Positions 56,921 through 63,509 of a stretch of DNA of 64,000 nt are shown here, piece after piece. Below the pieces are notes generated by a model, which was not told where the DNA came from, did no database searches, and saw only the letters and a program-made list of their open reading frames with translations. Numbering within the stretch: the first letter of the stretch is position 1; every line of letters begins with the position of its first letter. Both the position numbers and the translations under genes were made by a program. Location: positions 1-64,000 of the forward strand of contig NZ_JAKHSK010000024.1 of the NCBI RefSeq assembly GCF_023499215.1. Direction: 5' to 3'. This DNA comes from Zunongwangia pacifica (GTDB taxonomy: Bacteria > Bacteroidota > Bacteroidia > Flavobacteriales > Flavobacteriaceae).

Positions 56921-56945
56921 TGTTGAATGTTGAATTTTGAGTGAA
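56921..56945. repeat. Heptad repeat run
   Basis: The units TGTTGAA, TGTTGAA and TTTTGAG, then TGAAC, stand directly before the first 373-base repeat copy. They are of the same heptad type as the flanks of the four-helix-bundle genes. Confidence 0.65.
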
Positions 56946-57284
56946 CTTCGTTGTCATTTCGACCCTGCCTCGCCGGCAGGCAGGTGAAGCGCAGCGGAAT
57001 GGAGAAATCGCAATCAAGATAGACGTTCAAAGTTTAAAAGTTCAAGGTTCAAAAGTTGTTGTATCGAGAAGCCTTTGCAGTAATTTACAAATTTTCTCTA
57101 TTAGACTAAATAATAAAGTTATTCAAAATTAATAGGCCTGCTTCCTGATTCTTGCGTCTCTTCTCTATATCCTAACTTCTACCAGAAAAAAGATCTCTCC
57201 GCTCCGGTCGAGATGACGAAGTACTTTTTTTGCTTTCCCTTCTTCTATTTAAATCTGCCCATTACAAAAATAGGATGACTATTT
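56941..57284. repeat. 373-base-spaced tandem repeat, copy 1
   Basis: This unit is nearly identical to 57314-57657 at an offset of 373 bases. It contains a family B palindrome (56953-57008), a heptad array (57025-57053), a second short family B hairpin (57191-57217) and a T-rich tail. An open frame of 63 codons within it consists only of repeat sequence and I do not consider it a gene. A related tail lies at about 45-120. Confidence 0.9.
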
Positions 57285-57313
57285 TATGTTGAATTCTTGA
57301 AGCTAAGTTTTGA

Positions 57314-57657
57314 ATGAACTTCGTCGTCATTTCGACCCTGCCTTGCCGGCAGGCAGGTGAAGCGCAGCGGAATGGAGAAATCTCAATCAAGATAGACGTT
57401 CAAAGTTTAAAAGTTCAAGGTTCAAAAGTTGTTGTATCGAGAAGCCTTTGCAGTAATTTACAAATTTTCTCTATTAGACTAAATAATAAAGTTATTCAAA
57501 ATTAATAGGCCTGCTTCCTGATTCTTGCGTCTCTTCTCTATATCCTAACTTCTACCAGAAAAAAGATCTCTCCGCTCCGGTCGAGATGACGAAGTACTTT
57601 TTTTGCTTTCCCTTCTTATATTGAAATCTGCCCATTACAAACATAGGACGACTATTT
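57314..57657. repeat. 373-base-spaced tandem repeat, copy 2
   Basis: The second copy differs from copy 1 at about ten positions in the compared part, mostly near the ends (for example CCTTGCC against CCTCGCC in the family B core). The middle part is identical as far as I can see, pointing to a recent duplication or conversion. The whole gap 56899-57720 holds only these repeats. Confidence 0.9.
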
Positions 57658-59630: not shown

Positions 59631-62600
59631 TTAGTTTTTTGTGATTAATAATTTTGTAGTTACATCGTCAAATTCGACATCTACTCCTTCTTTTACTACT
59701 TCTGCAAGTTCGAGCGCTGCAGTTAAAGTTTCCGTTTTAATATAGGTTATATTATCCTTCACAGCATCCTCGACAATGCCGTCTTTTTGTAACGTTACAT
59801 TAATCGTATCGGTCACTTCGAATCCGCTGTCCTTTCTCATATTCTGAATTCGGTTTACCAATTCTCTCGCAACTCCTTCTTTTTTGAGTTCTGGCGAGAT
59901 AGTAACGTCTAGTGCGACAGTTATATTGCCACTGCTAGCCACAAGCCATCCTTCGATATCCTGTGATGAAATTTCAACTTCGTCGGAAGACAAAATAATC
60001 ATTTTTCCGTTTACTTCGACATTAATTTCACCCTCCCTTTCAATAGTTGAAATATCTTCTGGAGTAAATTGATTTATTTTAGCAACCACAGGTTTCATCT
60101 CTTTACCAAAACGTGGGCCAAGTACTCTAAAATTAGGCTTCACCTGCTTTACAAGTATTCCTGAAGCATCATCGATCAATTCAACTTCCTTTACATTTAC
60201 TTCAGATTTTATAAGATCCTGTACTGCTAAAATTTCTTCTCCTTGTTCTTTATCCAATACCGGAATCATAATGCGTTGTAGCGGCTGTCTTACCTTAATC
60301 ATTTCTTTTTTACGTAATGAAAGCACTAAACTTGAAATTGTTTGCGCCTTTTCCATCTTACGTTCTAAAGATTTATCTACAAATTTCTCATCGAAAACAG
60401 GGAATAAAGCGGTGTGAACCGACTCGTATTTCTCTTTTTTCGTGGTGCTATTCAAATCTTTATACAAAGCATCCATAAAGAACGGTGCCACAGGTGCACC
60501 AAGCTTGGCTACCGTTTCCAAACAGGTATATAAAGTTTGGTATGCTGAAATTTTATCCTGCTGGTAATCCCCTTTCCAGAATCTTCTTCGGCTTAATCGT
60601 ACAAACCAGTTACTAAGGTTTTCCTGAACAAATTCTGAAATAACCCGAGTAGCCCTTGTAGGTTCGTAATCGGCATAGAATTTATCTACTTTTTCAATTA
60701 ACGTATGCAATTCTGAAAGGATCCAGCGATCGATTTCCGGACGTTCTTCTAATGGAACATCTGCTTCAGCATACGTAAAATTATCGATGTTTGCATATAG
60801 CGTAAAGAACGAGTAGGTATTATAAAGTGTCCCGAAGAATTTACGGCTTACTTCTCCAATTCCCTCAATATCAAACTTCAGGTTATCCCATGGATTCGCG
60901 TTAGAGATCATGTACCAGCGTGTCGCATCTGGGCCGTAAACCGATAAGGTTTCGAAAGGATCTACAGCATTTCCAAGACGCTTGGACATTTTTTGTCCGT
61001 TTTTATCTAGAACCAATCCATTTGACACTACATTTTTATACGCCACATCGTCGAAAGTCATGGTCGCAATCGCGTGAAGTGTATAGAACCAACCACGGGT
61101 TTGATCTACACCCTCCGCAATAAAATCGGCTTTACGCCAGTCTTTTTCAACTTTTTCTTTATTCTCGAATGGGTAGTGCCATTGTGCATACGGCATAGAA
61201 CCGGAATCGAACCATACATCGATAAGATCGGCTTCACGCTTCATTGGTTTACCTGAATCGGAAAGCAATGTTATCGTATCTACTACATTTTTATGAAGAT
61301 CTACATTGGCGTAGTTTTCTTCACTCATATCGCCGATTTTAAAATCAGCAAAAATATCTTTATCCATCACTCCGGCTTCAACAGCTTTGGTGATTTCTAT
61401 TTTTAATTCTTCTACAGAACCGATAATTTTTTCTTCTCTTCCGTCTTCAGTTCTCCAAATTGGTAGCGGAATTCCCCAATATCGACTTCGGGATAAATTC
61501 CAGTCATTTGCATTTGCCAGCCAGTTTCCAAAACGGCCTTCTCCGGTAGATTTTGGTTTCCAGTTGATACCGGTGTTCAGTTCGTGCATACGATCCTTTA
61601 CATCGGTTACCTTAATAAACCATGAATCTAACGGATAATATAAAATTGGCTTATCGGTACGCCAGCAGTTTGGATAACTGTGTACATATTTTTCCACCTT
61701 AAAAGCCCTGTTTTCTTCCTTCAGTTTAATCGCGATTTCTACATCTACCGATTTCTCTGGAACTTCAGTATCATCATAATATTCGTTCTTCACATACTTA
61801 CCGGCAAATTCATCCATTTCTGGTCTAAATTTCCCCTGAAGATCTACTAATGGCACTAAATTATCATTCTCATCTTTTACCAACATTGGCGGAACCGGCG
61901 GTGTTGCCTGTTTGGCCACCATGGCATCATCGGCACCAAAAGTCGGTGCGGTATGAACGATCCCGGTACCATCTTCAGTCGTAACGAAATCTCCTGAAAT
62001 TACACGGAAAGCATTTTCAGGATGTTCAAAAGGCAACGTATATGGCAATAATTGCTCATATTTGATCCCTACAAGATCTTTCCCAACGTAAGATTCTCCA
62101 ACTAGGAAAGGTATTTTTCCTGCCTTGCCGGCAGGCAGGTTATCGCCTTCCTGGTACGTTTTCAGCTCTTCTTCGCTCTCTACTTCTTTAAATTTCTTAT
62201 CGAATTGTTTACGCGCCAGTTCTTTTGCCACCACAATCGTGATAGGCTGAAACGTATATTGATTGTAGGTTTTAACCGTTACATATTCAATTTTTGGCCC
62301 AACAGTAAGCGCGGTATTGGATGGAAGTGTCCACGGAGTGGTTGTCCAGGCAATTAAGAATACATCTTCTGTATGCTCTTTTAAACCAGCGGGCAATGTC
62401 TCTTTTTTGGTTTTAAACATTGCGGTAACCGTAGTATCGGAAACATCCTGATACGTTCCCGGTTGGTTAAGCTCATGTGAACTTAAACCGGTACCCGCTT
62501 TTGGAGAATATGGCTGGATGGTATAGCCTTTATAAATAAGACCTTTGTTATAGATCTGCTTTAAAAGATACCAAACCGTTTCCATATATTTTGGCTTGTA

Positions 62601-63056
62601 AGTGATATAAGGGTCGTCCATATCTACCCAATATCCCATCTTTTCGGTAAGGTCGTTCCAGATATCTGTGTAACGCATTACCGCATTTTTACAGGCCTCG
62701 TTATATTGCTCTACACTAATTTTAGTGCCAATATCTTCTTTGGTGATCCCAAGTTCTTTTTCTACGCCAAGCTCTACCGGAAGACCATGAGTATCCCAAC
62801 CTGCTTTACGCTTTACCTGAAATCCTTTTTGAGTTTTATACCTACAAAAAATATCCTTAATCGATCTTGCCATCACGTGGTGAATCCCCGGCAATCCGTT
62901 AGCCGATGGTGGGCCTTCAAAAAATATGAATGGCTTTTCACCTTCACGTGAAGTTATACTCTTTTCAAATATTTGGTTTTCCTTCCAATACTTTAATGTC
63001 TCCTCTGCAACTTTTGGCAAGTCAAGTCCTTTATATTCAGGGAACTTTGTGCTCAT
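59631..63056 (-). CDS. ileS: Isoleucyl-tRNA synthetase, with an in-frame repeat-derived insert
   Basis: The enzyme charges tRNA-Ile and edits valine. The class I motifs are seen as PSANGLPGIHH (HIGH region, about 50-60) and KNGQKMSKRLGN (KMSKS loop, about 690-700). WTTTPWTLPSNTAL belongs to the editing domain, and NLSRSRYWGIPLP is present in the catalytic core. The length of 1141 is normal for the Bacteroidota form. In the editing domain the residues NLPAGKAG (about 306-313) are encoded by the palindromic core of the family B repeat (62119-62139) and look like an insertion between EGD and KIPFLVGE. Confidence 0.97.
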   Translation of the reverse strand: MSTKFPEYKGLDLPKVAEETLKYWKENQIFEKSITSREGEKPFIFFEGPPSANGLPGIHHVMARSIKDIFCRYKTQKGFQVKRKAGWDTHGLPVELGVEKELGITKEDIGTKISVEQYNEACKNAVMRYTDIWNDLTEKMGYWVDMDDPYITYKPKYMETVWYLLKQIYNKGLIYKGYTIQPYSPKAGTGLSSHELNQPGTYQDVSDTTVTAMFKTKKETLPAGLKEHTEDVFLIAWTTTPWTLPSNTALTVGPKIEYVTVKTYNQYTFQPITIVVAKELARKQFDKKFKEVESEEELKTYQEGDNLPAGKAGKIPFLVGESYVGKDLVGIKYEQLLPYTLPFEHPENAFRVISGDFVTTEDGTGIVHTAPTFGADDAMVAKQATPPVPPMLVKDENDNLVPLVDLQGKFRPEMDEFAGKYVKNEYYDDTEVPEKSVDVEIAIKLKEENRAFKVEKYVHSYPNCWRTDKPILYYPLDSWFIKVTDVKDRMHELNTGINWKPKSTGEGRFGNWLANANDWNLSRSRYWGIPLPIWRTEDGREEKIIGSVEELKIEITKAVEAGVMDKDIFADFKIGDMSEENYANVDLHKNVVDTITLLSDSGKPMKREADLIDVWFDSGSMPYAQWHYPFENKEKVEKDWRKADFIAEGVDQTRGWFYTLHAIATMTFDDVAYKNVVSNGLVLDKNGQKMSKRLGNAVDPFETLSVYGPDATRWYMISNANPWDNLKFDIEGIGEVSRKFFGTLYNTYSFFTLYANIDNFTYAEADVPLEERPEIDRWILSELHTLIEKVDKFYADYEPTRATRVISEFVQENLSNWFVRLSRRRFWKGDYQQDKISAYQTLYTCLETVAKLGAPVAPFFMDALYKDLNSTTKKEKYESVHTALFPVFDEKFVDKSLERKMEKAQTISSLVLSLRKKEMIKVRQPLQRIMIPVLDKEQGEEILAVQDLIKSEVNVKEVELIDDASGILVKQVKPNFRVLGPRFGKEMKPVVAKINQFTPEDISTIEREGEINVEVNGKMIILSSDEVEISSQDIEGWLVASSGNITVALDVTISPELKKEGVARELVNRIQNMRKDSGFEVTDTINVTLQKDGIVEDAVKDNITYIKTETLTAALELAEVVKEGVDVEFDDVTTKLLITKN
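62119..62139. repeat. Family B palindromic core inside ileS
   Basis: The 21 bases starting CCTGCCTTGCCGGCAGG and ending CAGG are identical to the core of the intergenic copy at about 57339-57359. The core can fold on itself along its whole length, with one G-T pair. Here it lies within the ileS frame without breaking it. Confidence 0.85.
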
Positions 63057-63400: not shown

Positions 63401-63509
63401 GTCATCTCGACCGGAGCGGAGAGATCTTAATTACGATATAGGTTCTAGAATCGATTTCTACGTTCCGCTACGCTTCACCTGCCTGTCGGCGAGGCAGGGT
63501 CGAAATGAC
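63401..63509. repeat. Pair of family B repeats in opposite orientation
   Basis: A short copy (GTCATCTCGACCGGAGCGGA at 63401, ending GAGATC) and a full copy (63462-63509, with the core CCTGCCTGTCGGCGAGGCAG and ending TCGAAATGAC) face each other, like the two hairpins inside each 373-base repeat, but inverted relative to those. Confidence 0.75.

Follow-up and report, generated by a model that had tools for sequence, protein, structure and literature searches.

A 21-bp palindrome within ileS of Zunongwangia pacifica as a likely copy of a very short insertion unit

Palindromic elements that lie in frame within genes are already known, namely the Rickettsia palindromic elements (RPE) and intragenic REPs. 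According to the part of the source that was available to us, RPE and the Wolbachia elements (WPE) are palindromic DNA found in frame in genes likely encoding functional proteins (Di Nocera et al., 2013, PMC3733652). The same portion describes CGTC REPs as short palindromes of five phyla including Bacteroidetes, with G. forsetii named, and defines them by a stem of 8-9 bp, a loop of 4-5 nt, and a CGTC tag at one terminus (PMC3733652). These REPs also occur inside genes, tRNA synthetases included, and, as far as the accessible text goes, no dedicated transposase is known for the type, the missing enzyme being stated as an open question (PMC3733652). GTAG REPs, linked with RAYT, are presented there as short palindromes whose mobility is probably provided in trans (PMC3733652). 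Yeast mitochondrial GC clusters, in the section of the source at hand, are GC-rich mobile palindromes with cross-species transfer and a mechanism that remains open (PMC4478555).

Here we analysed a 21-bp palindrome, CCTGCCTTGCCGGCAGGCAGG, in a window of 64,000 nucleotides from the Z. pacifica genome (hereafter G000). It occupies positions 62119-62139 on the plus strand, exactly where the initial annotation had placed it, inside the minus-strand ileS gene (59631-63056), whose 1141-residue product was identified as isoleucyl-tRNA synthetase (IleRS) by Pfam and PDB matches. Among the matches listed, this gene was the only full-length one in the genome, the others being partial and lying in a 912-aa frame. 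Read on the minus strand, the 21-mer adds LPAGKAG and thereby accounts for most of the peptide NLPAGKAG (residues 306-313), the N codon being shared with the host gene (AA|C); the peptide begins at residue 306, as had been estimated. Searches of the open-access literature with sequence strings and peptides retrieved no paper on the 21-mer, which does not prove that none exists.

The initial annotation had claimed that the flanking protein reads smoothly without these residues, and had proposed an alignment of IleS with its relatives as the check. IleS matches were found in all 60 genomes searched, our own included, and the best 30 of the 60 were fetched and aligned. Only G000 and one other genome (G002) carried the residues of the 306-313 region, which were missing in the remaining 28 of the 30 as a gap of seven residues in 27 and of eight in one; the claim thus holds, and the insertion is clean. 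The eight aligned DNA rows agreed, with two filled, five lacking 21 bp, and one lacking 24 bp. The insert interrupts an A-rich run of the coding strand as a clean block of 21 bp, and no target duplication accompanies it. Distant homologues with the same residues but without the repeat DNA, which would have refuted the proposal, did not occur among the 30 aligned IleS sequences. An assembly artefact is unlikely because the insert is present in two genomes, one of them a single contig. The second carrier, G002, is probably Zunongwangia profunda SM-A87. The ileS gene of another genome, G001 (locus L054), has a different segment upstream of the core site, seven residues longer and repeat-like (SPLGGGLEGEAWG); the editing domain may therefore have taken up a second, unrelated repeat there.

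The simplest reading of the two filled genes, inferred from sequence comparison, would be a single insertion that took place before G000 and G002 diverged. The two genomes were sisters in a tree of 1.9 kb lying 2.7-4.6 kb past the 3' end of ileS (support 99/98), and a second tree, built from a region some 30 kb distant, likewise joined them (100/100). In the ileS tree itself, G000 grouped with G004 and G001 (83/97) and not with G002, and the identity along ileS was mosaic. Because of this conflict, a mosaic gene, insertion followed by loss, or two insertions must be allowed. Two independent insertions at the same site, one in each carrier, would account for an ileS tree that does not unite them and for an identity between them around the insert that is no higher than that with the non-carriers G004 and G001. 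However, both trees of other regions unite the carriers, and two 300-bp repeat copies at 56935-57607 (plus strand; 373 bp apart, 99% identical, holding two cores) were matched at the same place in only G002 out of five other genomes of the genus. We consider two separate events unlikely, and keep the single ancestral insertion as the simplest inference.

The window contained five matches to the core at up to three mismatches, compared with none in 100 shuffled sequences. Besides the ileS copy, an identical 21-mer lies on the plus strand within the REP-like backbone GTCATTTCGAC|core|TGAAGCGCAGCGGAATGGAGAAATCT; the identity of this intergenic copy had been recognized before, but its position is 57337-57357 and not 57339-57359, a difference of two bases. 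In the core held by the upstream copy of the same 300-bp repeat, position 8 is C instead of T (56964-56984, plus strand), and the same substitution marks the core in the REP-like backbone GTCATCTCGAC|core|CGAAGCGGAGAGATCT at 2315-2335 on the minus strand. The fifth match, with two mismatches, is located upstream of the ileS start, again within a REP-like backbone (63478-63498, minus strand), and an empty REP-like backbone without a core, GTCATCTCGACCGGAGCGGAGAGATCTT, lies at 63401-63428 (plus strand). Genome-wide, we counted five exact matches and, at up to three mismatches, 77 strand-wise matches; the pattern read backwards gave none. As RNA, the core forms a 7-bp stem with a 7-nt loop (-11.8 kcal/mol, z -2.08). 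Its T, C, and G versions contain no stop in any of the six frames, and the A version has one stop in two frames.

Several further sequences related to the core were noticed. Two coding copies in G000 lie in frames whose names rest on reading alone: an integrase-like frame with DFPAGEAG (L046, about position 298), in which the 3' end of the core has diverged, and a transposase-like frame ending in ENLPAGRQESFKAQP (L250, about position 575). The related variant CCTGCCCGTCCGGCAGGCGGG recurs on several G000 contigs, and the two copies whose flanks were inspected sit in a different backbone, agactagacttt|..|tttgctacttttttt. At about 556-575 of L251, a 20-bp palindrome separates ATCAGA from TTTCGGC in a degenerate tRNA-Arg-like copy; these two motifs are contiguous in an intact tRNA-Arg (L251, 208-282), so that the arrangement resembles a clean insertion of 20 bp. 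On each of two viral contigs, two directly adjoining cores form a 42-bp inverted pair (L258, 632-673; L270, 2003-2044), in apparently the same sequence.

The unit is not restricted to this genus. A scan of GTDB species genomes for the 21-mer returned at least 110 stretches, mostly metagenome bins, and among the matches listed, it was found in Bacteroidota, Patescibacteria, Omnitrophota, and others. The scanned loci among these matches held 115 places, 68 of them in ORFs of at least 150 aa, and 111 sites were kept after dropping duplicates and those less than 40 bases from the end of a locus. By NCBI labels, the 111 sites among the matches listed comprised 46 from Bacteroidota, 10 from Omnitrophota, 4 from Planctomycetota, and 14 without a label; the rest are mostly candidate groups, which we take to belong to Patescibacteria. 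Of 296 evenly sampled Bacteroidota genomes, 32 contained the 20- or 21-mer, and none the reversed control. Within the genus of G350, the strand-wise counts ranged from 0 to 23. The core had been presented as residing in a flavobacterial essential enzyme; it does lie in ileS, and it also occurs outside flavobacteria. One contig labelled Nitrosopumilus (L156) is suspected to be misbinned because its core-bearing protein resembles, by eye, the DUF6090 protein of L168.

The initial annotation regarded the ileS segment as an intergenic repeat inserted into the gene. The insertion stands, but the core is a unit separate from the larger intergenic repeat, since REP-like backbones with and without the core coexist in G000. 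We compared nine removal lengths alike, taking as an empty counterpart a sequence with at most two mismatches in 24 bases and searching only the window and the fetched loci of G000. Removal of 21 bp gave an empty counterpart for 35 of 57 distinct copies (36 of 58 in an earlier count before the strands were merged), removal of 17 bp for three, removal of 25 bp for one, and the remaining six lengths for none. With exact matches only and unmerged strands, there were 14 counterparts at 21 bp and two at 17 bp. The ileS copy had no empty counterpart within the window and fetched loci of G000, as is expected for a single-copy gene, and its empty form was found in relatives. Empty REP backbones found by pattern were not counted as proof of the length because the patterns describe only the form from which 21 bp have been removed.

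Tandem arrays gave a second measure of the length. Removal of 21 bp restored a flanking array at 14 of the 111 sites from public genomes among the matches listed, two of the 14 being in Bacteroidota, and offset controls did so in 0.5% of 443. With the left end fixed and the right end moved, the same 111 listed sites gave no restoration at 17-20, 24, or 25 bp and one each at 22 and 23 bp. When both ends were moved, some removals of 23-26 bp restored arrays, at no more than 3 of these 111 sites, and a 21-bp removal shifted by one base still restored 10, a consequence of the one-base ambiguity at many sites. The base 3' of the core was C or T in 102 of the 111 sites among the matches listed. The 20-bp palindrome gave no clear length signal (0-2 of 44 sites). 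In the REP-like backbones of G000 and in short tandem arrays of genomes from several phyla, filled and empty forms thus differ by exactly 21 bp, and we are largely confident that the ileS segment is one copy of a discrete and very short insertion unit of palindromic sequence. A dispersed signal, for example for DNA uptake or methylation, which owed its origin to point mutation and selection instead of insertion, could also appear as a single near-invariant palindrome in many phyla. It would not, however, produce filled and empty sites that differ by exactly 21 bp in ileS, in REP-like backbones, and in arrays, and we regard this possibility as hardly tenable.

The discrete insertion unit is also found inside other proteins. 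From 41 ORFs picked by eye, 40 were scanned against Pfam (L293 was left out). According to coordinates that we read ourselves, the core was inside the best Pfam stretch in 26 of the 40 and outside or at the edge of it in 11, and no family was assigned in three (L110, L120, L123). The stretches that contain it include AlaRS (L115), IleRS (L126), TsaD (L127), UvrC (L141), GyrA (L186), Hsp70/DnaK (L188), CTP synthase (L192), and a class I tRNA synthetase (L296). In Tex of G280, two such inserts of seven residues each were present, and both peptides were missing in all 19 aligned relatives (28 genomes of the family searched, 20 loci aligned), with small length differences near the first insert. 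The 21-mers, whose length is divisible by three, were interior to ORFs more often than the 20-mers, in 18 of 33 cases compared with 7 of 43 (Fisher p 0.0006). The figures were 10/14 and 6/17 in 30 hit-selected genomes, 5/10 and 1/21 in the Bacteroidota sample, and 3/9 and 0/5 in the genus of G350; as the 30 genomes were selected for having a match, their 30/30 is uninformative on frequency. A cruder count including viral stretches gave 36/45 versus 14/40. In the scan set, 55 of the 111 21-mers among the matches listed were interior to ORFs, which is rarer than the 0.693 for random positions, and this deficit fits a purging of some insertions.

The initial annotation had also suggested placing the insert on an IleS structure. 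AlphaFold models were weak, with a mean pLDDT of 53.1 for the full-length protein and 57.5 for a 231-residue editing-domain fragment. In both models, the insert lies between a helix and a strand, with pLDDT below 50 at residues 306-313 in the full-length model and 307-311 in the fragment. Low values are expected here because only two rows have residues at the insert; for the same reason, the models fit a loop in the editing domain but prove nothing. On this predicted basis, LPAGKAG would probably lie in a variable, disordered loop of the editing domain. Persistence of the insert may be explained by its length, a multiple of three, by the mostly stop-free sequence, in which the T, C, and G versions are open throughout, and by the inferred position in such a loop.

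Tolerance of this kind has to be weighed against retention for a function, either a translation-slowing mRNA hairpin or a useful editing-domain loop. Between the two ileS genes, which share 89.4% identity, the 21 bp do not differ, the RNA hairpin has the folding energy and z-score given above, and the LPAG(K/E/Q)A frame is favoured in 24 of the 55 ORF-interior copies among the matches listed. However, by our own arithmetic, the probability of 21 unchanged bases at 89.4% identity is about 0.1, so no constraint is needed. Moreover, the unit occurs in many unrelated proteins, and the frame bias can equally be explained by which peptides are tolerated. We judge selection for a function quite improbable.

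How the insertion unit moves is the least certain part of our explanation. The initial annotation inferred that the repeat is, or was, mobile, and the presence/absence comparisons, which are the only basis for mobility, support this; no transposition was observed. The unit may have spread as a non-autonomous element through a single-strand reaction without target duplication, similar to that of Y1 (IS200/RAYT-type) transposases and with the enzyme supplied in trans. A reaction of Y1 type, or one like that of a recombinase, would fit the clean ends and the lack of target duplication. By our tally, uncorrected for kinship, Y1_Tnp was found in 29 of 32 core-bearing Bacteroidota genomes versus 181 of 264 others (p 0.007). 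However, Y1_Tnp (PF01797, E ≤0.001) was missing in five of six genomes of the genus, including three core-bearing ones, and no core at up to three mismatches was found within the fetched flanks of 33 Y1 loci at 31 distinct places. A Y1 transposase adjoining the unit was rejected, none of these 33 loci having a core in the fetched flanks. Movement by a Y1-type transposase in trans remains a tentative suggestion with a weak link, and the mover is unknown. General insertion into hairpin loops, hinted at by the REP-like copies and by a weak stem around the ileS insertion site, was also rejected, as junctions were not preferentially unpaired (0.50 versus 0.544 for other positions at the 111 sites among the matches listed).

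The unit could instead have been copied from another copy without any transposase, by template switching or repair during replication with the hairpin causing the event. Such copying competes with the Y1 step only. An identical core lies 4.8 kb from the ileS copy, the RNA of the unit folds into the short hairpin described above, and no transposase has been linked to it. Ragged ends would be expected, though, whereas most copies end precisely at 21 bp, which counts against such copying; we find it rather doubtful, without dismissing it. In the most far-reaching reading, a single near-invariant 21-bp palindrome would be a minimal mobile insertion that has passed horizontally among Bacteroidota, Patescibacteria, and several further phyla. 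An unidentified trans-acting enzyme would insert it before a pyrimidine without duplicating the target, and its length and mostly stop-free sequence would allow it to enter essential genes as a tag of seven residues. We hold this composite to be evenly poised between right and wrong. If true, the unit would rank among the smallest mobile DNA units known. It would also mean that a 21-bp sequence, mobile across distant phyla, has again and again extended essential enzymes by the same few residues, which is a way of changing proteins overlooked by annotation.

Among the described systems, MITEs are elements of 70-300 bp with terminal inverted repeats, for which target duplication is a criterion, and the 21-mer has neither the size nor the duplication. 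Y1 chemistry makes no target duplication, and in this the GTAG REPs would agree with the 21-mer, but the latter lacks the GTAG tag and was absent from the 33 Y1 loci. RPE-1 is about 100-150 bp long, and the RPE and WPE families are confined to their genera, whereas our unit is 21 bp long and occurs across many phyla. The 21-mer does share with RPE the in-frame insertion in genes of functional proteins, function being inferred here from conservation; the Rickettsia parallel drawn at the outset is thus apt as a statement that the unit works in a like manner, and membership in that family has not been shown. The yeast GC cluster GC42, as characterized in the available part of the source, differs in being mitochondrial, 42 nt long, and associated with a putative AG target duplication (PMC4478555). 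The intergenic backbones here are similar by eye to the CGTC REPs, some of them carrying CGTC. The 21-mer is itself inserted in such backbones, has no CGTC tag and starts with CCTG; visual inspection also showed no CGTC closer than about 45 bp to the ileS insert. Its 7-bp stem and 7-nt loop do not meet the definition of 8-9 bp and 4-5 nt, as far as the accessible text gives it, and CGTC repeats are called heterogeneous there (PMC3733652), whereas the 21-mer is near-identical between phyla. If our reading is right, the 21-mer offers a defined substrate with which to seek the missing enzyme of the palindromic repeats that have no transposase.
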